Assembly: GCF_013205025.1 (NCBI RefSeq)
Contig: NZ_JABMLE010000002.1
Span: 1,131,670-1,195,669, forward strand
Direction of reading: 5' to 3'
DNA length: 64,000 nucleotides
Origin: Rathayibacter sp. VKM Ac-2857
Lineage (GTDB): Bacteria; Actinomycetota; Actinomycetes; Actinomycetales; Microbacteriaceae
Below are positions 37,707-47,664 of the stretch, piece after piece. Both the position numbers and the translations under genes were made by a program. The notes below the pieces were generated by a model. It saw nothing but the letters and a program-made list of their open reading frames with translations, was not told where the DNA came from and ran no database searches. Numbering within the stretch: position 1 is the stretch's first letter; every line of letters begins with the position of its first letter.

Positions 37707-38494
37707 GCGTGTCGCGGCTGGCGTTCTCGAAGTTCCTGGAGCCTGCGGAGGTTCCGGTGCTGGTGTCGAGCTTCCGGGCGGAGGGGTACGAGGGGCTGCA
37801 GCTGAAGGGGGCGCAGTACGCCGAGTACGTGAACGACCCATCTCGCGCCTTGGCTTCGCTGGGTGAGGATCCGGGGGTCTACTCGGCGCTGATCACCGGG
37901 GATTCTCTGGACGAGGCGGGGCAGGAGCGGATCGCGGCGACCATCGCTTTCGCCGCGGCGGTGGGGGCCGAGCGGATCGTGTTCTGCCACGGGCATCCGC
38001 ACGAGGGGGTGGATGCCGCGATGCGGCGCTCGTTCGCTTCGACGCTGACCGATATCGCCTCTCGGTCGCGGGACGCCGGCGTGGCGTTCTCGCTGCACCA
38101 CCACACGGACCAGCCGGTGATGGAGCTGGCGGACTTCCGCGAGTTCTTCGACGGGCTGGAGCCGGGGGTGCTCGGGCTGACCGTGGACACGGCGCATCTG
38201 GCGCGGTCGGGGGTCGAGGATCTGCCGGGCTTCATCGACGAGTTCGGGGCCTTCGTCGACAACCTGCATCTGAAGGACTACTCGATCCCGGTCGGGCGGG
38301 ACGGGGAGTGGCGGATCGCCGGGGAGGGCGTGCTCGACCTGGGCGGGGTGCTGGACGCGCTCGGGCGGGCGGGGTACGACGGGTGGATCTGCGTGGACGA
38401 GGAGAGCGACGCGACGCTCGAGGAGGGGCTGCGGCGGTCGAAGGGGTGGCTGGGCCGGCACGCCGACGAGGCGCCGGAGCCGCGGGCCACCTGA
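37703..38494 (+). CDS. sugar phosphate isomerase/epimerase (AP-endonuclease-2 TIM barrel)
   Basis: A 263-residue TIM-barrel enzyme of the xylose-isomerase-like/IolE-IolI class. Metal-binding residues appear in SLHHHTDQPVM, LGLTVDTAHLARSG, DNLHLKDY and WICVDEES. It probably interconverts the sugar produced by the dehydrogenase in the same operon. The ATG overlaps the cupin stop. The operon content (dehydrogenase, importer, cupin, isomerase) suggests inositol- or ketose-like catabolism, but the substrate cannot be named. Confidence 0.87.
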   Translation: MSVSRLAFSKFLEPAEVPVLVSSFRAEGYEGLQLKGAQYAEYVNDPSRALASLGEDPGVYSALITGDSLDEAGQERIAATIAFAAAVGAERIVFCHGHPHEGVDAAMRRSFASTLTDIASRSRDAGVAFSLHHHTDQPVMELADFREFFDGLEPGVLGLTVDTAHLARSGVEDLPGFIDEFGAFVDNLHLKDYSIPVGRDGEWRIAGEGVLDLGGVLDALGRAGYDGWICVDEESDATLEEGLRRSKGWLGRHADEAPEPRAT

Positions 38495-38631: not shown

Positions 38632-38686
38632 ATACCCGCTTCAGGAGCACACTGTCGAGCAGAAAGCCCCGACGGAGGGAGTGCTC

Positions 38687-40855
38687 GTGCAGCCGCTCGT
38701 CTCGACGCCGTGGAGCAGCTTCGCCTCGAAGGAGAGGAACCGGCGCGCGATCGGTCTTCTCGACTCCGTCGGCGGCGTCTTCGGCCTCGGACCGCAGGAC
38801 GTCGTCCGGGTCCGCTTCGCGCCGGGGCGCGCGAGCACTGTCTCCCTGGACCTGAACGACTGGGCCGGGCCGGCCGTCGTGATGGGCGGCGGCGAGATCG
38901 TCGCTGTCATCGGCCGGTCACCGCACGGCCGGGACTCCCGACGCCTGAGCTTCCTCGTCGGGCCGCTCCTCCGGGAGCTGCTGATCGTGCTCGTGCGCGA
39001 GGCGCCGTCGTGGGAGCGGGCACCCGGCGGACCGCCGCCGGCGCAGCTGGTCGCTTCCGTCTCGAAGCCGCCCGCCGACGATCTGCGGGAGGCACCCGCC
39101 GACGACGGACGACAGCCGGAGCACGAGGACCGGTGGTCACCCGGCAAGGCAGGAAGGGGGAAGCCGTCCAGGATCGTCCCCGACCTGAGCATGCTCGGCG
39201 GCGGGGACGCGCCCGCTCCGCCGCCGCGCAGTCCTCGCCCGCCGGGGCGCCGGGTCGCCGAGCCAGCGGCGCCGCGGGCGGGCGGGTTCGTGCGGAAGCC
39301 GGTCCCGGCCGCGGCCGCGAACGCGGCGGTGGATCTGCCCGAGACGCTTCGCCTCGGGGTGCTGGAGGATCTCCTCGTCACGGTCGCCGGCGAGGAGGTC
39401 GACCTCGCGACCGTCGCGCATCGGAGCCTCGGCAGCATCCGGGGAGTCGTCGGCCGGCCGGTCCTCGTGCGCTTCGCGGCGGAGCGGGCGATCGTCGAGC
39501 CGGCCGAGCTCTGGCTCCCGTTCCCCGGCGCGGAGGACCGCGGCGAGAGAACGGCAGGGGTCAGAGCCCTGGTGACCGGCCGGGTGAGCGTCTGGGTGCG
39601 CTTCGAGCAGGACGGCGCACTCCTCGGCGTCATCAGGATCGAGTCGGACGCGATCGAGGGCGGAGCGGCGGCCGCGCCGACCCGGCGCCAGGACAGGCTC
39701 GATGCCGAAGCGCACCCCCAGACCGACCGGCTGGACATCACGGAGACGACGGTCGAGATCACCCCGGCGACCGAGATGGCACCGGCGGTCTGCGGCACCG
39801 TGATCGAGTACGACCTGCACACCGCGGGAAAGACCGTGACGGCGACGATGCCGGTCGATCGCCCCGCCCTCCTCCACGACCTCTACACGGGGATCGAGAA
39901 GGTCTGGGTCGAGATCCAGAACGACGTCGGCCGGAACCCGCGCACGAACGGCCGCGCCCGCAGCGCGGGAGCCGAGTTCACCATCCGGCTGCGGGAGATC
40001 GGCGAGAACCTCGCCGAGAAGCTCCTGCCGCCAGAGCTCCGCGCCTTCCTGCACGCGCACCGGAAGGAGATCGAGGGCATCACCTTCTTCACGACCGGGG
40101 CCGCGCTGCCGTGGGAGATCGTGCACCTCTCCGACTCGTCGGGCGGGAACGGCGTGTTCCTCGGCGAACTCGGCATGGTGCGCTGGCTGCAGGGCACGCA
40201 TCCGTCCGCTCACCTCAGCGTCTCGATGGCGCGCGCCCGCTGGCTGATCCCGGAGTACCAGGACCCGCTGCCCTTCCTCACCAACGAGAGGGCCTTCCTG
40301 GAGAAGAGGATGCGCGCGCAGCCTCTCGCCCCCGCCGACCACACGGGACTCGTCTCGGAGCTGACCGCCCGCGGATTCGATCTGCTGCACTTCGCCGGTC
40401 ACGGCGACGTCGATGCGGACGAGCCGCTGACGCAGTACCTCCTGGTCGACCCGGGCGCCACCGTCCGCTACGCGGACACCGAGGTCCGCGCCGGCTTCCT
40501 CCCGCTGACTCCGCCGCCGACGCGGACCGGGCCGATCGTGATGCTGAACGCCTGCCGCACCGGCGAGCTCCGAGCGGATCACGGCGGATTCGCCACAGCG
40601 TTCCTCCAGGGCGGGGCCGAGATCTTCGTGGGATGCCGCTGGTCGGTCGGGTCGCGGGCCGCCTCCAGCTTCACCAGCGCCTTCTACCTGGCGCTCCGCG
40701 ACGGGGCCACTCTCGCACAGGCGTCCTGCCGTGCCCGCGAGAGCGCTCGGAGCGACGACGACGCGAGCTGGATCGCGTACACCGTCTACGGCAACCCGCA
40801 GGCCACCGTCGACTTCGTCGACTGGACGGACGACCACTTGGAGGAGACGCCATGA
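38687..40855 (+). CDS. CHAT-domain caspase-like protease
   Basis: A 722-residue protein with a C-terminal CHAT domain (about residues 450-710), the caspase-related cysteine protease fold. The catalytic dyad is intact: H572 in LLHFAGHGD and C623 in VMLNACRTGE. The usual CHAT sequence before them, LPWEIVHL, and the final DASWIAYTVYGNP are present. The N-terminal 440 residues hold two beta-rich segments joined by a Pro-rich linker and match no domain I know; they may bind partner or substrate. CHAT proteases cut partner proteins in defence and cell-death systems (e.g. Craspase). The GTG at 38687 is chosen for GGAGGGA 6 bases upstream; 38681 and 38558 are alternatives. Its stop overlaps the metacaspase gene. 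Confidence 0.88.
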   Translation: MQPLVSTPWSSFASKERNRRAIGLLDSVGGVFGLGPQDVVRVRFAPGRASTVSLDLNDWAGPAVVMGGGEIVAVIGRSPHGRDSRRLSFLVGPLLRELLIVLVREAPSWERAPGGPPPAQLVASVSKPPADDLREAPADDGRQPEHEDRWSPGKAGRGKPSRIVPDLSMLGGGDAPAPPPRSPRPPGRRVAEPAAPRAGGFVRKPVPAAAANAAVDLPETLRLGVLEDLLVTVAGEEVDLATVAHRSLGSIRGVVGRPVLVRFAAERAIVEPAELWLPFPGAEDRGERTAGVRALVTGRVSVWVRFEQDGALLGVIRIESDAIEGGAAAAPTRRQDRLDAEAHPQTDRLDITETTVEITPATEMAPAVCGTVIEYDLHTAGKTVTATMPVDRPALLHDLYTGIEKVWVEIQNDVGRNPRTNGRARSAGAEFTIRLREIGENLAEKLLPPELRAFLHAHRKEIEGITFFTTGAALPWEIVHLSDSSGGNGVFLGELGMVRWLQGTHPSAHLSVSMARARWLIPEYQDPLPFLTNERAFLEKRMRAQPLAPADHTGLVSELTARGFDLLHFAGHGDVDADEPLTQYLLVDPGATVRYADTEVRAGFLPLTPPPTRTGPIVMLNACRTGELRADHGGFATAFLQGGAEIFVGCRWSVGSRAASSFTSAFYLALRDGATLAQASCRARESARSDDDASWIAYTVYGNPQATVDFVDWTDDHLEETP

Positions 40856-43011
40856 CATCGACCACCGATCGCCTCAGCCGAGCGAGCGTCGCACGACTGC
40901 GGACGTGCGTCGTCTCGACCGATGACGGCTACCTGGCCACCACGTCCGGCGACCCGGAGCCGTTCCCGGAGGACTTCGCAACCACCTCAGACCACGTGCG
41001 GCAGCTCGTCTTCGACCACTTCGCCACCTACGTCGACGCCCTGCCCGCCGGAATTCCACCCCGGATCATGCTGCACGCGCACGGCGGGCTGGTCTCGGCG
41101 ACGTCCGCCCTCGCCTATGCCGACGTGACGGCCGACTTCTGGCGGGCGCACCACGTCTTCCCCGTCTACTTCGTCTGGCGGAGCGGCAAGGGGAAGACCT
41201 TCTTCGACGTCCTCGACGAGACGCTCTCCGGAGGCGACGACGGCACCCGCTCCGCTCCGACCGACGACATCGTCGAACTGCTCTGCCGGTTCGGTCAGGG
41301 CCGGCGCTTCTGGCGGGAGATGAAGGAGGACGCTCGCCGGTGCTCCAGGCCGGAGGGCGGGGCGCTCGCCTTCGCTGAGGTGCTGCAGGAGTACCTCGCC
41401 GACCGGGCGACATCGGAAGAGGCACTCGCGCCCGCGGACCGGCATCCACCCGTCGAGCTGCACGCCGTGGGCCACAGCGCCGGCTCGATCTTCCATTCCG
41501 CGTTCGTCCCCGCGGCCCGGAGGGTCGGCCTGCCGGCGTTCACCAGCCTCGCCCTGCTCGCGCCCGCCATCCGGATCGACGAGTTCCGCAGCACGCTCGC
41601 GAAGGCCGTCAAGAGGAGGGACATCCTCAGCCTGACCCTGTTCACGATGCGGGATGCGGTCGAGAGCGAGGACGACTGCGGACCGTACCGGAAGTCGCTG
41701 CTCTACCTGATCCACGGAGCGCTCGAGAACACGCGGCACGTGCCGCTGCTCGGACTCCAGAAGTGCGTCGACGCCGACCCGGACATGAGCGCCTTCTTCT
41801 CCACCGATCCGAGGATCGCCGAGGCCGTGTACGCCCACACGGAGGCGACAGCGGGCCGGAGCGCCTCCCACGGGGAGCACCACGGCGACTTCGACGACGA
41901 CCTCGCCACGATGAACAGCGTCGCCCGGCGGATCCTGCGGCTGCGCGACGACCAGGCGCTCGCGCGGGACTTCCCGTCCGACGACGCGCACTCCGCGAAG
42001 GCGCCGCGCGCGGGGCGCGATGCGGGGCCGATCGTCCCTGTGCCCGTGCCGGAGCATCACCGGATGCGCGCCCTCTGCATCGGGATCAGCGCCTATGCGG
42101 GCCACGACGCTCTGAACAGCGGCGTGAAGGATGCAGAGCGCTGGGCCGCGGTGCTGGCGGGTTTGGGCTTCGCGCCGACGATCCTGCGCGACAAGGAGGC
42201 TTCCAAGGAGGGGATCATGCTGGCGATCCTGGACCTCGTGCTCACCGCCCGACCGGGCGACGTCATCGTGATCCACTACTCCGGTCACGGAGTGGCCGTG
42301 CCGGACCTCGACGGCGACGAGCGCTTCCGGCACGGCCGCCGTCGAATGGATTCCGCACTCTGCCCGATCGGCTTCCGCGACGGCACCGTCATCGTCGACG
42401 ACGAGCTCGCGCTGATCTGGGAGCAGCTCCGGGAGGGAGTCAACGCGACCCTGTTCTTCGATTCCTGCTACGCCGGCGACGCGGCCCGGAACGCCGGAGG
42501 CGGCGCCCGAGCGGCCCTCGACGGCGGCGCCGTGACAGCCGGCGCGCTGCGGACGGCCGACGATCCGGGGCGGAACATGCGAACCGTCGAGCTGTCGGCC
42601 GCCGAGAGCGCCGCGGCAGGATCGGACTACCGCCAGGCGGGCCCGATCGAAGCGCCCTCTCCGCAGCCCGTCGTGCTGTACAGCGCCTGCTCCCCGACGC
42701 AGGTCGCGTACGAAGGGGCCGAGGCCGGCGACTTCACCGCCCTCGTCGTGCCGCTGGTCGAGGACGCCTACCGTCAGCGACTCACGAACCGCGAGTTCCT
42801 CGACCGGATCATCGTGGCGTTCGGCACGAACCCCGGCCAGGACCCGATGATGACCCCCGCCCTCGAGTTCGACGAGCGTCCGTTCCTCCGGCCGGTGGTC
42901 CCCGTGCCGAGCAGCGGGCAGACCGGGATCGATGCGAGACCTGCTGCCTCGGAGCGGCTCGCCGCCGCAGCCGATCTACTGCGGGCCGCAGCCCGGTTGC
43001 TCGAGAGCTGA
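40852..43011 (+). CDS. alpha/beta-hydrolase-like domain fused to a metacaspase
   Basis: A 719-residue two-domain protein. Residues about 50-330 look like an alpha/beta hydrolase: IMLHAHGGLVSA near the oxyanion position and AVGHSAGSIFHS with nucleophile S209. A His/Asp-rich linker (about 335-395) follows. Residues about 400-680 are a peptidase C14 metacaspase: ALCIGISAYAGHDALNSGVKDAERWA, then H479 in IHYSGHG and C539 in LFFDSCYAGD, both catalytic residues present, and an Asp-rich DLDGDE after the histidine. A C-terminal Ala-rich helix closes it. The ATG overlaps the CHAT stop (ATGA), so the two proteases are made together. This fusion is unusual; a role in regulated cell death or phage defence is inferred from the families. 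Confidence 0.88.
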   Translation: MTSTTDRLSRASVARLRTCVVSTDDGYLATTSGDPEPFPEDFATTSDHVRQLVFDHFATYVDALPAGIPPRIMLHAHGGLVSATSALAYADVTADFWRAHHVFPVYFVWRSGKGKTFFDVLDETLSGGDDGTRSAPTDDIVELLCRFGQGRRFWREMKEDARRCSRPEGGALAFAEVLQEYLADRATSEEALAPADRHPPVELHAVGHSAGSIFHSAFVPAARRVGLPAFTSLALLAPAIRIDEFRSTLAKAVKRRDILSLTLFTMRDAVESEDDCGPYRKSLLYLIHGALENTRHVPLLGLQKCVDADPDMSAFFSTDPRIAEAVYAHTEATAGRSASHGEHHGDFDDDLATMNSVARRILRLRDDQALARDFPSDDAHSAKAPRAGRDAGPIVPVPVPEHHRMRALCIGISAYAGHDALNSGVKDAERWAAVLAGLGFAPTILRDKEASKEGIMLAILDLVLTARPGDVIVIHYSGHGVAVPDLDGDERFRHGRRRMDSALCPIGFRDGTVIVDDELALIWEQLREGVNATLFFDSCYAGDAARNAGGGARAALDGGAVTAGALRTADDPGRNMRTVELSAAESAAAGSDYRQAGPIEAPSPQPVVLYSACSPTQVAYEGAEAGDFTALVVPLVEDAYRQRLTNREFLDRIIVAFGTNPGQDPMMTPALEFDERPFLRPVVPVPSSGQTGIDARPAASERLAAAADLLRAAARLLES

Positions 43012-43362
43012 GTCGGCACCCCCGCGATTCACGACGGGAAGCAGCCACTTCACGCAGTCTCTTACCCTTCCGTGACTGCGCGTCTCCGGCGTCCGCCCAC
43101 CACCGCTGCCCCCCGGCCGTGGGCCGCACCGTGGGTCGTCCAGCTGGCTGTTGCCCCGCCGAACGGCCTCGCGGCCCGGCGGAGCGCACGAAACCGCCTG
43201 TAAGCCGGCTGTGCGAACGCTCTCCCAGAGGGCGCAGACGAGCGCCTCCGCACCCCCGCGGGCGATCTTGACCGTTTTCTCAGCCGCCGGTTACGTTCCG
43301 CCTGGAGCGAGGGGCCGCTACGAAGCCGCCCGGGTACTCCTGCGGGGAACAGGACCATCACG
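43012..43362. other. intergenic region upstream of the SipW operon
   Basis: About 350 bases. Apart from the promoter at 43268-43297 nothing is recognised. Inverted GC-rich segments around 43108-43130 (GGCCGTGGGCCGCACC) could terminate the protease operon. Confidence 0.5.
43268..43297 (+). promoter_or_regulatory. promoter of the SipW export operon
   Basis: TTGACC (43268-43273), an 18-base spacer and TACGTT (43292-43297) form a good promoter about 65 bases before the first substrate gene. Confidence 0.65.
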
Positions 43363-43908
43363 ATGAAGAAGACGACCAAGGGCGCCATCGCGGCCGGCGC
43401 GGCTGCTGTACTGCTGCTCGGCGGCGCGGGCACGCTCGCGTTCTGGAGCGACTCGGAGCCGATCGACGCCGGTGCGATCGAGTCGGGCAACCTGACTCTG
43501 GACGTGGCCGCGGGAACGTGGGCCGACGTGACGCCGGGGACCACCACAGGAGCGCTCTTCGACCCCGCCACCGACCTCATCGTGCCGGGTGACATCATCA
43601 CGTACACGACCGCAGCGACCGTCAGCGGCATCGGCAAGAACCTCGAGGCGACGTTCTCGGCGGTCCTGCCCGCCGCCGCCGGCACCCTCGCCCCGTACGT
43701 CGACACCGCGCTCACCGTCGCCGGCGAGACCGACGGCGGCGACTCGCTCGTCTTCGACTTCGAGGACGGCGACACCCAGACGTTCCCGGTCGTCGTCACC
43801 TTCACCTTCGACCCCGCCACCGCAGGTCTCGACGGCCAGGACTCGACCCTCGACCTGGCCGAGTTCCAGCTCCTGCTCGCGCAGAACCCCAACGGCGTCA
43901 CGCCGTAG
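43363..43908 (+). CDS. SipW-dependent (alternate-type signal peptide) envelope protein
   Basis: A 181-residue exported protein. The N-terminus KKTTKGAIAAGAAAVLLLGGAGTLAFWSDSE is the alternate-type signal peptide processed by SipW-like signal peptidases; the cleavage region is at TLAFWSD. The mature part is a beta-rich domain with GNLTLDVAAGTW and PGDIITYTTAATV, like TasA/CalY-type fibre proteins. The first gene of the operon, it is probably the major extracellular subunit. Fibre formation is inferred from TasA/SipW systems of Bacillus. Confidence 0.85.
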   Translation: MKKTTKGAIAAGAAAVLLLGGAGTLAFWSDSEPIDAGAIESGNLTLDVAAGTWADVTPGTTTGALFDPATDLIVPGDIITYTTAATVSGIGKNLEATFSAVLPAAAGTLAPYVDTALTVAGETDGGDSLVFDFEDGDTQTFPVVVTFTFDPATAGLDGQDSTLDLAEFQLLLAQNPNGVTP

Positions 43909-43935
43909 TCAGCGCGCGACTCACCCAGCAGCCCC

Positions 43936-44496
43936 ATGCCCTCTCGGCTCTCCGCCGTCGCCCTCGGTGCAGCGGCCGTGCTCACCCTCGCTCTCGCGGG
44001 GATCGGCACGGCCGCCTACTGGAGCGACGCGGAGACCGTGCCGGGCACCACGCTCCGCTCCGGCAGCCTCGATCTGCTCGCGGGGTCGGCGGCTGCGCAG
44101 GTGCAGGACCACGTCTTCACCGCCCTCGATGCGAGGAACGCGGGGCCGGGCAACGTCGCCCAGGCACCGCTCACGCTCCGCAACGCCGGGACCGAGGACC
44201 TGCGCTACCGGCTGGACAGCACCGTCGTGACGCCGGCGGCCGCGGCCTCGGCGTTCACCACCGCCGCGACCCTCGTGTCGTCGGCGGCCTCGTGCCCGGC
44301 GACGGGCACGCCCACCGGTCTCGCGCTCGTGACCACCGCGCCGCTCGGCTCGGCGACCTCGGCGTACCGGAACCTGCAGAAGGGGAGCAGCGAGGTGTGG
44401 TGCATCCGCGTGACCCTGTCGCCGTCCGCGCCGCAGGCCTCCCTGCAGAGCACCAGCACCACCATCGTGTTCCGCTTCCGGGCGGAGCAGCTGTGA
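43936..44496 (+). CDS. SipW-dependent envelope protein, minor subunit
   Basis: A 186-residue exported protein with the same signal type (LTLALAGIGTAAYWSDAETV), then RSGSLDLLAG and a TasA-like beta domain. Two cysteines (in ASCPATG and EVWCIRV) may form a disulfide. Its stop overlaps the signal peptidase start (GTGA). No ribosome site is obvious before the ATG, so the start is judged by the signal peptide. Confidence 0.8.
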   Translation: MPSRLSAVALGAAAVLTLALAGIGTAAYWSDAETVPGTTLRSGSLDLLAGSAAAQVQDHVFTALDARNAGPGNVAQAPLTLRNAGTEDLRYRLDSTVVTPAAAASAFTTAATLVSSAASCPATGTPTGLALVTTAPLGSATSAYRNLQKGSSEVWCIRVTLSPSAPQASLQSTSTTIVFRFRAEQL

Positions 44497-45110
44497 GCGC
44501 CCCCGCGAGCATCGAGGCGGAGGCCGGAGCGGGGCGGCACGCCGCCGTGCGCTCGAGGGCTCCGCGGCTCAAGGAGGACGGCGCGCTGGTCTGGGTGGGC
44601 CGGGTGCTCTCCTGGCTGGCGCTGTTCGTGACCGTGGGCGTGCTGCTGGCGACGGTGGTGGTGCCCCGCGTGACCGGGGCGACCGCCTACACCGTCCTCA
44701 CCGGCTCGATGCGGCCGGGGCTGCCGCCCGGCGAGCTCGTGGTGATGCGGCCGGTCCCCGCCGACTCGATCGGCGTCGGCACGGTGATCACCTACCAGCT
44801 CGCCTCGGGCGAGGGCGCCGTCGTGACGCACCGGGTGATCGCCACGGCCGAGAACGCGCGGGGCGAGCGCACCTTCGTCACCCAGGGCGACGCGAACAAC
44901 GTGGCGGACCAGGAGCCGGTGCGCGAGGTGCAGGTCCGCGGCGTCCTCTGGTACCACCTGCCGTGGCTCGGCTACCTGAACAGCGCTCTCACCGGTCCGC
45001 AGCGCGGCATCGCGACGATCGTCGCCGTGAGCCTCCTCGGCGGCTACGCCCTCGTGATGTTCGGCGGAGCCCTGCTCGACCGCCGCCGGAAATCCAGGAG
45101 GGTCTCGTGA
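44493..45110 (+). CDS. sipW: SipW-type signal peptidase I
   Basis: A 205-residue membrane peptidase. Helices near residues 36-58 and 173-195 flank the catalytic domain. The nucleophile is S72 in LTGSMRPGLPPGE. The general base is H113 in VVTHRVI, a histidine where bacterial SPase I has lysine, as in SipW and archaeal/ER-type enzymes. GDANNVAD is the conserved box E. It should cleave the flanking alternate-type signal peptides. GTG start overlapping the previous stop. Confidence 0.92.
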   Translation: MSAPASIEAEAGAGRHAAVRSRAPRLKEDGALVWVGRVLSWLALFVTVGVLLATVVVPRVTGATAYTVLTGSMRPGLPPGELVVMRPVPADSIGVGTVITYQLASGEGAVVTHRVIATAENARGERTFVTQGDANNVADQEPVREVQVRGVLWYHLPWLGYLNSALTGPQRGIATIVAVSLLGGYALVMFGGALLDRRRKSRRVS

Positions 45111-45901
45111 CCGGCCGCTCCCGGCGCGCGCGGACTGCGCGGCTCGCCGTCGCCGTCGCCGCGGTGGCGCTCGGTGCGATCGCCCCGCCGGTCCTCGCGC
45201 CGGCCATCGCCCTCGCCTCCCCCGGATCGCTGCCGGTGCCGGAGGAGGGGCTCGAGCTCAGCACCGACGGCGACGCGTTCGCTCCGCGGATCGACGAGCC
45301 CCTGCTCCGCACGGACGAGCGCATCGTGCCCGGCGGCACCTCGACCGCCGTGCTGTACGTGCGCAACACCCGCGCCGAGGACGCCCAGGTGACAGTGGTG
45401 CTCGACACCCCGCCGAGCACGCCGCTCTGGGAGGTGCTGGACGTGACGGCCACGGCGGAGGGACGCAGCCTGCCGGTCGCCGAGTCGCTCGAGGTGAGCC
45501 CCGCGGGCACGAGGAGCGACCAGCGATCGGTGAGCCTTGGCACGCTCCCGGTCCCTCCCGGCGGCGTCCTGCCGGTGCGGTTGACCTTCACGATGGATCC
45601 GGCGGCGGGCAACGAGTACCAGAGCATCAGCGCGTCGGTGCGTCTGAACGTGACCCTGAGCGAGCGCCTCGACGGAGCCGGAGCCGGAGCCGCGTCCGCC
45701 GACGACCACGGTCCGTGGCCGCTCCACCTGCCGTCCACCGGCCTCTCCCTCTCGCCGCCGCTGCTCCTCGCCGCCGCCGGCGCGATGGCCGCGGGCCTCG
45801 CCCTCCTCCTCGCGATGCGCTCCCGGCGCGCGCCGTCCGCCACCGCGATCTCCGACCCGCACGACCGACCCCGAAGGCAGTCCCCGGATGTCCCGTCCTG
45901 A
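45107..45901 (+). CDS. cell-surface protein with LPSTG-like anchor
   Basis: A 264-residue exported protein. A basic N-terminus and hydrophobic signal (residues 14-37) precede a beta-rich domain with RIVPGGTSTAVLYVRNTRAEDAQVTVVL. The C-terminus is LPSTGLSLSPPLLLAAAGAMAAGLALLLAMRSRR: a sortase-like LPSTG motif, membrane helix and basic tail. It probably anchors the fibre to the envelope. GTG start overlapping the signal peptidase stop. Confidence 0.82.
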   Translation: MTGRSRRARTARLAVAVAAVALGAIAPPVLAPAIALASPGSLPVPEEGLELSTDGDAFAPRIDEPLLRTDERIVPGGTSTAVLYVRNTRAEDAQVTVVLDTPPSTPLWEVLDVTATAEGRSLPVAESLEVSPAGTRSDQRSVSLGTLPVPPGGVLPVRLTFTMDPAAGNEYQSISASVRLNVTLSERLDGAGAGAASADDHGPWPLHLPSTGLSLSPPLLLAAAGAMAAGLALLLAMRSRRAPSATAISDPHDRPRRQSPDVPS

Positions 45902-46538
45902 ACTCCCGCAGAGCACCTCGGCCTCGCCGCGCTCCCGCCACGCCGCGGAACGCCGCCCGAGGCGCTTCCGTTCGCGCAGTGTCCAGGTGCGCGCCCTGCT
46001 CTCCGTCGGCATCCTGCTCGGCGGCGGCGGCGTCGCCACCCTCGCGGCCTGGTCGGACAACGCGACGGCCACCACCACGTTCAGCACGGGCAACGTCGAC
46101 CTGAAGCTCAACACCTTCGACACCATCACCATCCCCGCCTGGACCAACCTGCGCCCGGGCAGCACGCAGGCGGTGGCGATCGCGGTGAGCAACACCGGCA
46201 CGCTCCCCGTGACCTACACCGTCGTCGGCGCCGGCAGCGGCACGCTCGGCCCCGCGCTCACCGCGGCCGTCTACACCGGCGGCACGCCCTCGAACCCCAC
46301 CGGTGGCACCACCTCCTCCTGCAGCGGCACCGCGATCACCGCCACGGGCACGTCGGCACCCTCCTTGGTGGGCACCCTCGTCGGCACGGGCCGCCCGCTG
46401 GCCGGCGCCACCGCCACCCCAGCCGTGACCCCGTCGGAGACGCTCTGCGTGCTCTTCACCCTGCCCACCACCGCGGCGACCACCCTGCAGTCGCAGACCA
46501 CGAACATCACCCTCACGTTCACCGCGACCACCACCTGA
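45888..46538 (+). CDS. SipW-dependent envelope protein with long basic N-terminus
   Basis: A 216-residue exported protein. About 30 polar, arginine-rich residues precede the alternate-type signal LLSVGILLGGGGVATLAAWSDN, then GNVDLKLNTFDTI. Thr-rich beta domain with two cysteines (SSCSG and TLCVLF). The gene overlaps the end of the previous one by 14 bases. The long basic leader may mean a later start. Confidence 0.8.
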   Translation: MSRPELPQSTSASPRSRHAAERRPRRFRSRSVQVRALLSVGILLGGGGVATLAAWSDNATATTTFSTGNVDLKLNTFDTITIPAWTNLRPGSTQAVAIAVSNTGTLPVTYTVVGAGSGTLGPALTAAVYTGGTPSNPTGGTTSSCSGTAITATGTSAPSLVGTLVGTGRPLAGATATPAVTPSETLCVLFTLPTTAATTLQSQTTNITLTFTATTT

Positions 46539-46542
46539 GCCC

Positions 46543-47664
46543 GTGTCGACCGCCCACCACCTCGCCGAGTCGCCGGACGCCTCCCACCGGGACGATCCGC
46601 CGCACGACGCGATCGAGCCCGCCGGAGAGGCGGCGCGCGCGGACGCGCCCGCGCGCCCCGGGCGGATGCGGGCCGCGCTCCGCGAGTTCCTGCTCACGGT
46701 CGGAGCGGTGCTCGGCACCCTCTGCCTGCTGTCCGCGCTCGCGGCGCTGCTGTTCGGCATCACCCCGCTCGTCTTCCAGAGCGGATCGATGGGGCCCGCG
46801 ATCGAGACGGGGGCGCTGGGGATCGCCCGCGACATCCCCGCCGCCGACGCGCGGCCCGGCGACGTGGTGAGCGTGGAGCTGCCCACGGGAGTGCGGATCA
46901 CCCACCGCGTGGTGTCGAGCACCCCGGTCGGCGGCGATCGGGTGTCCCTCGTGCTCCGCGGCGACGCGAACGCGGTGGACGACGCGGAGCCGTACGTCGT
47001 CGACCGGGTGGACCTGCTCCTCACGAGCGTGAACCGCGTGGGCTACGTGGTGAGCGCGCTCGCGAGCCCGCCGGCGCTGTTCCTGGGCGGGCTGCTGGCC
47101 GGGCTGCTGCTGATGGTGGCGTTCGCTCCGACCAGGGCTGCGCGCCCAGCGGCGACTCAGGAGGCGGGCACCGCCCCTCGCCGCCGGCACCGGCACGCGG
47201 CAGGAGGCGCCCTCGGTCTCACCGCCGTGCTGCTCGCGGGCGCGGGGGTCGTCGCTCCCCCGCCGGTGGGGACCACGGCCGCCTTCACGGATGCCGCGCT
47301 CGCGACGACCACGGCCGCGACCGGGGCCCTGCCGGTGCCGACGATCACACGCTGCGACGTGAACCTCCTGGGACAGGTGACGCTGACCTTCACCGTGCCC
47401 ACCGCATCGCTCGCTCAGACCGGGATCGTGGCCACCTACGGCACGGGCGCCGCCACGACGTCGACGACGCCGGTCGAGCCGACGATCCGCACCATCAGCT
47501 TCACCCCCGTCAACACCCTGCTGGCCGTCGGCTCCTCCTGGCCCGTGACGGTCTCCACGGTGCTCTCCGGCACCACGTGGCGGGGCACCTCGCCGTCCTA
47601 CACCGTGACGAACGTGCTGGGCATCGGGAACATCACCGTGCGCAGCTGCAACCCGACCCCTTAG
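46543..47664 (+). CDS. SipW-type signal peptidase fused to a substrate-like domain
   Basis: A 373-residue fusion. Residues 1-200 form a signal peptidase I: helix at about 47-72, nucleophile S82 in FQSGSMGPAI, base H121 in ITHRVV, GDANAVDD box E, and a second helix at about 175-197. After a basic linker a hydrophobic segment (about 217-240) leads to GTTAAFTDAALAT, which resembles the cleavage region of alternate-type signal peptides. A Thr-rich beta domain to the C-terminus follows, resembling the exported subunits. The enzyme may therefore process its own C-terminal part. It starts 4 bases after the preceding stop. Confidence 0.82.
   Translation: MSTAHHLAESPDASHRDDPPHDAIEPAGEAARADAPARPGRMRAALREFLLTVGAVLGTLCLLSALAALLFGITPLVFQSGSMGPAIETGALGIARDIPAADARPGDVVSVELPTGVRITHRVVSSTPVGGDRVSLVLRGDANAVDDAEPYVVDRVDLLLTSVNRVGYVVSALASPPALFLGGLLAGLLLMVAFAPTRAARPAATQEAGTAPRRRHRHAAGGALGLTAVLLAGAGVVAPPPVGTTAAFTDAALATTTAATGALPVPTITRCDVNLLGQVTLTFTVPTASLAQTGIVATYGTGAATTSTTPVEPTIRTISFTPVNTLLAVGSSWPVTVSTVLSGTTWRGTSPSYTVTNVLGIGNITVRSCNPTP

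Follow-up and report, generated by a model that had tools for sequence, protein, structure and literature searches.

A CHAT protease gene overlapping a hydrolase-metacaspase gene in Rathayibacter: a candidate immune or self-killing module with an exchangeable protease partner

The window analysed here is a stretch of 64,000 nucleotides from Rathayibacter sp. VKM Ac-2857 (contig NZ_JABMLE010000002.1, positions 1,131,670 to 1,195,669). Two overlapping genes within it encode a CHAT protease (open reading frame 1, ORF1) and a protein that joins an alpha/beta-hydrolase to a metacaspase (ORF2). The original prediction, made from the sequence alone, had already described this ATGA-overlapped pair, and Pfam matches to CHAT and Peptidase_C14 bear it out. 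A query with the hydrolase domain against 84,980 species genomes gave relatives in 184 stretches, the best 80 of which were kept as loci (L numbers); one ORF from each was aligned with the window ORF2 (81 sequences). The hydrolase and a caspase share one ORF in 66 of the 80 loci, although the caspase of L014 is a fragment only. Our CHAT alignment holds 18 ORFs, the window's and 17 from the loci; three of the latter, namely those of L013 and L053 and the second CHAT ORF of L062, do not belong to the direct partner. The features of the pair are as follows.

38687 to 40855, forward strand: ORF1, CHAT-protease gene, GTG start, TGA stop, 722 amino acids (ORF and translation, Pfam CHAT, Foldseek)
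38999 to 39298, forward strand: low-confidence linker, ORF1 residues 105-204 (predicted local distance difference test, pLDDT, below 50)
39305 to 39655, forward strand: all-beta DUF7363-like domain, ORF1 residues 207-323 (DSSP of the model; weak DUF7363 match)
40262 to 40792, forward strand: CHAT catalytic domain, ORF1 residues 526-702 (Pfam)
40400 to 40402, forward strand: codon of CHAT catalytic His572, kept in 18/18 CHAT ORFs
40553 to 40555, forward strand: codon of CHAT catalytic Cys623, kept in 18/18 CHAT ORFs
40852 to 40855, forward strand: ATGA stop/start overlap of ORF1 and ORF2 (sequence)
40852 to 43011, forward strand: ORF2, hydrolase-metacaspase gene, ATG start, TGA stop, 719 amino acids (Pfam; model mean pLDDT 83.9)
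40969 to 41937, forward strand: alpha/beta-hydrolase domain, ORF2 residues 40-362 (conserved in 81 sequences; strand/helix order; weak fold matches)
41476 to 41478, forward strand: codon of nucleophile Ser209 (GHSAGS), 81/81
41671 to 41673, forward strand: codon of candidate catalytic acid Asp274, 81/81, after strand 261-266
41881 to 41883, forward strand: codon of catalytic His344, 81/81, after the last hydrolase strand, 323-328
41986 to 42051, forward strand: disordered hydrolase-caspase linker, ORF2 residues 379-400 (pLDDT below 50), possibly a cleavage site
42055 to 42897, forward strand: metacaspase domain, ORF2 residues 402-682
42286 to 42288, forward strand: codon of caspase His479, kept in 63/66 hydrolase-caspase loci
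42466 to 42468, forward strand: codon of caspase Cys539, kept in 64/66 hydrolase-caspase loci
42946 to 43005, forward strand: C-terminal helix, ORF2 residues 699-718 (LLRAAARLLES; model, alignment)

A GGAGG motif at 38674-38678 lies ahead of the ORF1 start, and translation could instead begin at an in-frame GTG at 38681. Residues 526-702 match Pfam CHAT with an E-value of 9.8e-20 and contain the predicted H572/C623 dyad; ORF1 is a CHAT protease by domain and dyad, and separase and Csx29 fold matches concur. The predicted model is of middling quality (mean pLDDT 67.8, 13 rows) and runs from a beta-rich start through the disordered residues 105-204 and an all-beta part (about 207-323) to the protease region. 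Its best Foldseek matches are separases and Csx29/TPR-CHAT proteins (E from 5e-11; Csx29 chains 8eey_B at 1e-10 and 7y9x_B at 2.9e-9), with SAVED-CHAT after them (8tl0, 4e-7). The N-terminal 440 residues, suggested as a possible sensor, had been left unassigned; this no longer holds for residues 207-323 or so, which are DUF7363-related, while the rest is poorly predicted, with its beta-rich start and some 100 disordered residues. The DUF7363 match in the window protein (residues 217-313, E 0.089) is under the Pfam cut-off, as is that in L003 (E 0.0067); the relatives L016 and L060 match at 1.8e-15 and 2.9e-17.

ORF2 matches Peptidase_C14 over residues 406-626 (E 1.6e-16) and is a metacaspase by its caspase fold and by the dyad H479/C539, which is present as predicted. 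No Pfam family was found over its first 400 residues, so that the hydrolase assignment draws on the motif and triad, on the order of strands in the model and on remote matches. The GHSAG serine noticed at S209 is indeed there, and S209, D274 and H344, all invariant, are placed among the strands and helices of the model as the GxSxG elbow and Ser-Asp-His triad of an alpha/beta-hydrolase. The distant matches are to PGAP1-like and lipase proteins in a viral fold library (E 0.004 and above, aligned range not displayed), and DUF900 scores above cut-off in the relative L084 (E 9.7e-6). A hydrolase profile searched against PDB sequences returned a single, irrelevant match (E 0.33). When the full ORF2 model was compared with PDB folds, all 50 matches listed were caspase folds, and hydrolase matches are therefore not visible there; the NCBIfam scan gave just a caspase match far below cut-off. 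Between the two domains, each of the 56 rows listed has two or more Lys/Arg in the region aligned to residues 366-404. Since this linker is disordered and basic, and metacaspases prefer a basic P1 residue, it is a plausible metacaspase cleavage site. The C-terminal helix recurs in a FLRATADLLE-like form in most of the actinobacterial clade, in both CHAT- and metalloprotease-partnered members.

Are the two genes neighbours by chance? The original prediction had named a pair not conserved together in other genomes as one of the findings that would refute it, and this is not what we see. A search of 99 genomes found ORF2 matches in six (the window's own included), full-length only in the window's genome and in two of 14 other genomes of its genus (sister genomes, G numbers). 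Both orthologues, about 41% identical to ORF2 and full-length, have a CHAT ORF directly upstream, which argues that the pair is not fortuitous; CHAT thus stands beside ORF2 in 3/3 genus copies. In the wider set we called a partner when it lay no more than 2.5 kb from the hydrolase ORF or was fused to it. CHAT is the partner in 16 of the 66 hydrolase-caspase loci (10 upstream, 4 downstream, all in Hymenobacter, and 2 fused, L016 and L060), and a metalloprotease in 41 of the remaining 50, where it shares the strand of the hydrolase ORF in 27 and lies opposite to it in 14 (three calls, L008, L032 and L047, matched in pieces or by part only). The two occur together in 0/66, and nine loci have neither; L013 and L053 carry CHAT beyond the limit, at 4.1 and 5.7 kb. 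The idea of two unrelated peptidases that merely adjoin could draw on those nine, but 57 of 66 loci do have a partner, fusions exist and the genes overlap in the window; we rejected it as highly improbable.

CHAT, then, is the partner in the window and genus, as proposed, but only one of several in the wider family, which is spread over several bacterial phyla and in which the second protease type follows the clade. In 31 aligned metalloprotease partners, H238, E239, H242, H264, E265 and D269 (L020 numbering) are invariant, forming HExxH and HExxxD motifs. It is on this invariant motif that the label 'thermolysin-like' rests, since the thermolysin (M4) matches are weak, both in Pfam (11/31, best E 0.02) and with the profile against PDB (E 0.18). 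In a quick tree of 56 hydrolase-caspase sequences (support from the Shimodaira-Hasegawa-like approximate likelihood ratio test, SH-aLRT, only; 13 forks open), the window protein, on a long branch, groups with its two genus relatives with support 95, and the Hymenobacter CHAT-linked members fall far from the actinobacterial CHAT-linked ones. The CHAT/metalloprotease label changes at least three times on this tree, partnerless rows left out. The hydrolase-metacaspase is kept while its protease partner changes, which suggests that an interchangeable initiator governs a fixed executor. The order could be the reverse, with the metacaspase as the input-side protease that activates CHAT or itself and CHAT as a parallel effector: both dyads are conserved, the linker has Lys/Arg, and metacaspases commonly process themselves. 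However, because the hydrolase-caspase part stays constant while the partner fold varies, a constant executor with variable input fits better, and we regard the reverse order as unlikely.

The 14 loci without a caspase match have neither CHAT nor metalloprotease (0/14). We partly dropped the idea that they encode stand-alone hydrolases, for five of the seven scanned against Pfam (L070, L080, L082, L084, L085) carry a papain-like Peptidase_C1 above cut-off (weakest E 1e-4). Among the same seven, L071 gave no Pfam match. L054, a Sphingomonas relative without recognisable caspase, has an Amidase_2 domain and a trypsin-like neighbour. L006, a relative from the 99-genome search that lies outside these 14 loci, has no peptidase match. 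L070, L073 and L078, and the caspase-bearing L019, adjoin related proteins of about 486 amino acids; CxxCH haem motifs are visible by eye in L019, L070 and L073.

Several other loci have unusual surroundings. In L010 (4083-7578) and related Cryobacterium and Arthrobacter loci the metalloprotease lies on the opposite strand, and most of these loci also contain a distinct gene for a caspase alone; L010 also has a RelA/SpoT-domain gene upstream. The CHAT partner of L030 (10142-13414, Hymenobacter) carries in addition an LCAT-like hydrolase and an M17 aminopeptidase N-domain, and the partners of L045, L051 and L063 cluster with it. In L062 (3445-8007, Rhodococcus zopfii), a matrixin-type metallopeptidase (PF00413, E 2.4e-8) comes first, then two tandem CHAT genes and then the hydrolase-caspase gene. 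L041 (7621-8001, Sinomonas) has an upstream ORF of 127 amino acids that clusters with CHAT partners without a CHAT match, possibly the remnant of a lost partner. In L013 (2046-7077, Desulfopila), CHAT-CHASE2, FecR-PASTA and caspase-only genes lie upstream of the hydrolase-caspase gene.

Two Agromyces genomes carry all three domains in a single polypeptide, in the order CHAT-hydrolase-caspase in L016 (1497 amino acids) and hydrolase-caspase-CHAT in L060 (1927 amino acids). The L060 fusion, from Agromyces cavernae, is the last gene of an operon that begins with a 398-amino-acid protein (LAHSLGG, hydrolase-like by eye), a caspase-VMAP protein (VMAP-C E 2.4e-10) and a MoxR-like ATPase (bpMoxR E 1.5e-5, under cut-off; AAA_5 slightly above its own cut-off). 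The N-terminus of the fusion looks vWA-like by eye, and the remainder reads hydrolase-caspase-DUF7363-CHAT. This operon is a predicted conflict system. Effector domains in MoxR-vWA-VMAP systems are typically C-terminal to vWA (a passage of PMC8195603 restating Kaur et al. 2020), and passages of Kaur et al. (PMC7159879) describe the caspases there as always accompanied by an alpha/beta-hydrolase gene, with which they were suggested to act jointly. In L060 the hydrolase-caspase-CHAT module therefore appears to sit where the effector would be. About 70% of the effector-position caspase domains are inactive according to the same source (PMC7159879).

The pair fills a segment whose ends are recognisable by comparison with sister genomes:

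38451 to 38460, no strand: left end of the variable segment, where flank homology to five sister genomes ends
43019 to 43025, no strand: right end of the variable segment, where flank homology resumes (43019 in G005, 43025 in G006)

The isomerase gene of the left flank is present at 74-94% identity in five of the 14 other genus genomes (G003, G005, G006, G007, G009), and the junction that follows it is a variable site, with other cargo in all five. G005 has a type II methyltransferase (PADLOC E 1.3e-130), an 869-amino-acid protein with the look of an SMC-type ATPase by eye and without Pfam or PADLOC match, a 370-amino-acid protein and a SIR2-like protein (E 6.6e-7). G006 has GmrSD (Pfam E 2e-27), HipA (1.1e-42) and a 232-amino-acid protein without PADLOC match. 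Past the left flank G003 has McrB-like (REase_II E 2.8e-20) and McrC (Pfam E 4.3e-46) genes, with a type I restriction enzyme (1.7e-24) farther along. In G007 one unassigned ORF precedes McrB and McrC, 87% and 89% identical to those of G003, and G009 has metabolic genes (by eye; one tested, no PADLOC match). Restriction or other defence-type genes thus occupy the window's insertion junction in four of the five sisters, in a comparison in which no control junction was scored. Together with the L060 operon, this gives substance to the defence-like setting that had been suspected. Presence in the genus is patchy (3/15 genomes).

A more general part in programmed cell death, or in how aggregating or starving cells respond to stress, not directed at phages, would also account for such a pair, and passages of PMC3501461 propose roles in cell death for bacterial metacaspases, Amidase_2-metacaspase proteins included. 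Since defence-type genes replace the pair at the same site and its distribution is patchy, we favour immunity and give this more general role only a minor share of probability. Another possibility is envelope maintenance or stress response, in which a cell-wall or lipid hydrolase under proteolytic control would remodel or repair membrane and wall. A scan of 37 non-actinobacterial members, from which L009 and those of papain type were excluded, gave Peptidase_C14 matches in 35 and Amidase_2 matches in 30; a 14-member neighbour cluster at Arthrobacter and Cryobacterium loci holds a flotillin/SPFH protein, confirmed in L036 only; and in one Magnetococcales member (L065, 10105-11481) the next gene after the hydrolase-caspase gene encodes a Tle1-like phospholipase (PF09994, E 9.1e-70). 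These would suit an envelope function. Inspection by eye, no predictor being used, found no signal peptide at the ORF2 N-terminus or in the consensus of alignment A6, however, and the patchy distribution (3/15), the same-site exchange with restriction genes and the MoxR-VMAP operon also speak against it; we think it improbable.

An immune or self-destruct switch is probable, given that the window copy sits where sister genomes carry anti-virus genes. We infer the defence role from this location and company. CHAT proteases and caspases are established immune proteases. In the scheme we propose, ORF2 would be a conserved executor, a metacaspase joined by a flexible linker to a lipase- or esterase-type hydrolase, and ORF1 an initiator protease that reads a trigger or keeps ORF2 in check. 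Activated ORF1 might cleave ORF2, or allow ORF2 to cleave itself in the basic linker; the freed metacaspase would then attack cell proteins and the freed hydrolase an ester substrate, most likely membrane lipid, and the infected cell would stop or die. In other clades a thermolysin-like metalloprotease may take the place of CHAT as initiator. Zymogen control, the direction of cleavage, the substrate of the hydrolase and the trigger are the parts of this scheme that we infer. There is precedent for bacteria unmasking effectors by proteases, a caspase-nuclease among them (passages of PMC12799240). Overall, that the pair is a portable immune or self-killing module of two proteins, with a conserved hydrolase-metacaspase executor under the control of an initiator protease that can be exchanged, has in our judgement about an even chance of being right. 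More tentatively, and with the balance tilting somewhat against it, the family could form a proteolytic cascade in which various initiators (CHAT, thermolysin-like, possibly trypsin-like) plug into one fixed executor, the final blow coming from a protease-released lipase, joined by a peptidoglycan amidase in most of the caspase-bearing members that are not actinobacterial. Different initiator caspases similarly converge on common executioners in animals.

A number of observations weigh against the two-protein immune module. The hydrolase could act on a non-lipid substrate or be a peptidase. The caspase His is replaced by Gln in L060, and the dyad is gone in L032 and L014, which accounts for all exceptions at both catalytic positions. 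Locus counts are phylogenetically non-independent: Cryobacterium and Polaromonas supply many of the loci, L008 and L009 come from contigs of the same genome, and L012 and L018 are the two genus relatives. Neighbours of these very loci were also the source of the metalloprotease and trypsin profiles. In the genus, the other two copies (G004, G009) occupy another site, and no defence genes were seen by eye there in G006, G011 and G012; the 251-amino-acid marker gene of that second site is a common dehydrogenase-like gene and is uninformative. PADLOC (2023 version) gave no match for the 869- and 370-amino-acid proteins of G005, for either McrC, whose assignment rests on Pfam, or for the two genes flanking the segment. 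Some relatives have housekeeping neighbours, L037 and L042 beside rpoB/rpoC and L024 near a YchF GTPase gene.

How does the pair compare with described systems? PADLOC held no strong match of both genes to any known defence system: ORF1 (BovA, E 6.5e-5) and ORF2 (caspase, E 2.8e-11) have domain-level matches only. MoxR-vWA-VMAP systems also combine a caspase with an alpha/beta-hydrolase, and L060 has a caspase in both its VMAP protein and its effector-bearing protein, as described in passages of PMC7159879. The window differs in having hydrolase and caspase as one polypeptide with a second protease, and MoxR, vWA and VMAP were found neither in the pair (Pfam) nor by eye among neighbouring ORFs (two neighbours scanned, PADLOC). 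Canu (caspase-nuclease) and gated nuclease-protease pairs share caspase involvement and a protease-gated effector; passages of PMC12799240 report a protease that activates the partner effector and a nuclease that co-occurs with several protease families. The effector there is a metallo-beta-lactamase (MBL)-type nuclease (PMC12799240), whereas the window has a lipase-like hydrolase fused to a caspase, a second protease and no nuclease domain by Pfam. Craspase (type III-E gRAMP with TPR-CHAT/Csx29) and SAVED-CHAT share the CHAT fold with ORF1, but ORF1 has no TPR or SAVED match, its N-terminus is beta-rich and partly disordered, and no gRAMP adjoins, the two genes filling 38687-43011. Neither protein matches gasdermin (Pfam, PADLOC), as a bacterial gasdermin (bGSDM) operon would require. 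We accordingly rejected the pair as a plain member of the Craspase, Canu, gasdermin or VMAP systems.

Amidase_2-metacaspase proteins were listed in 2012 in Polaromonas and others, with suggested roles in cell death, and are probably the same kind of protein as our Polaromonas L020, L021 and L028; the passages of PMC3501461 concerned name no middle alpha/beta-hydrolase and no partner protease for the Polaromonas proteins, and they name a GDSL-like lipase for one Chitinophaga protein. Metacaspase GSU0716 and the plant and yeast metacaspases cover, in profile and fold matches, the caspase half of ORF2 only. The original prediction could not put a name to the pairing. This stands for the two-protease module, since a search of titles and abstract openings in the open-access literature found no report of it or of partner exchange; it does not for the hydrolase-caspase partnership, whose co-occurrence in conflict systems was already predicted in print in 2020 (passages of PMC7159879). 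The word CHAT is absent from the main text of that article, and the passages cited here do not describe fusion or partner exchange. To this the present analysis adds the two-protease module, the exchange of partners and the evidence from the shared insertion site. If the proposed scheme is true, two protease families and a lipase-like enzyme would act in one bacterial immune pathway whose initiator has been swapped by evolution and whose executor has been retained. The partnership predicted in 2020 would take concrete shape, and the Amidase_2-metacaspase proteins of 2012 would gain both a middle domain and a partner. The role and switch of bacterial metacaspases, a long-standing question, would become testable with two genes.

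Plasmid records gave 28 matches for ORF2 and 122 for L020, with at least 80% coverage in one each, the same Kovacikia minuta plasmid. On this cyanobacterial plasmid (pA, L090), a hydrolase-caspase gene, 46.3% identical to the Polaromonas protein over 96%, is followed by a metalloprotease in two overlapping ORFs. With Polaromonas L020 as query, three of 50,697 phage records matched, none at 80% coverage and by amidase or caspase parts only. Downstream of the pair, at 43363-47664 of the window, lies a cluster of secreted-protein and signal-peptidase-like genes, similar by eye to surface-fibre clusters of the TasA/SipW type; the gene at 43363 is matched in three of the 15 genus genomes, the window's included.

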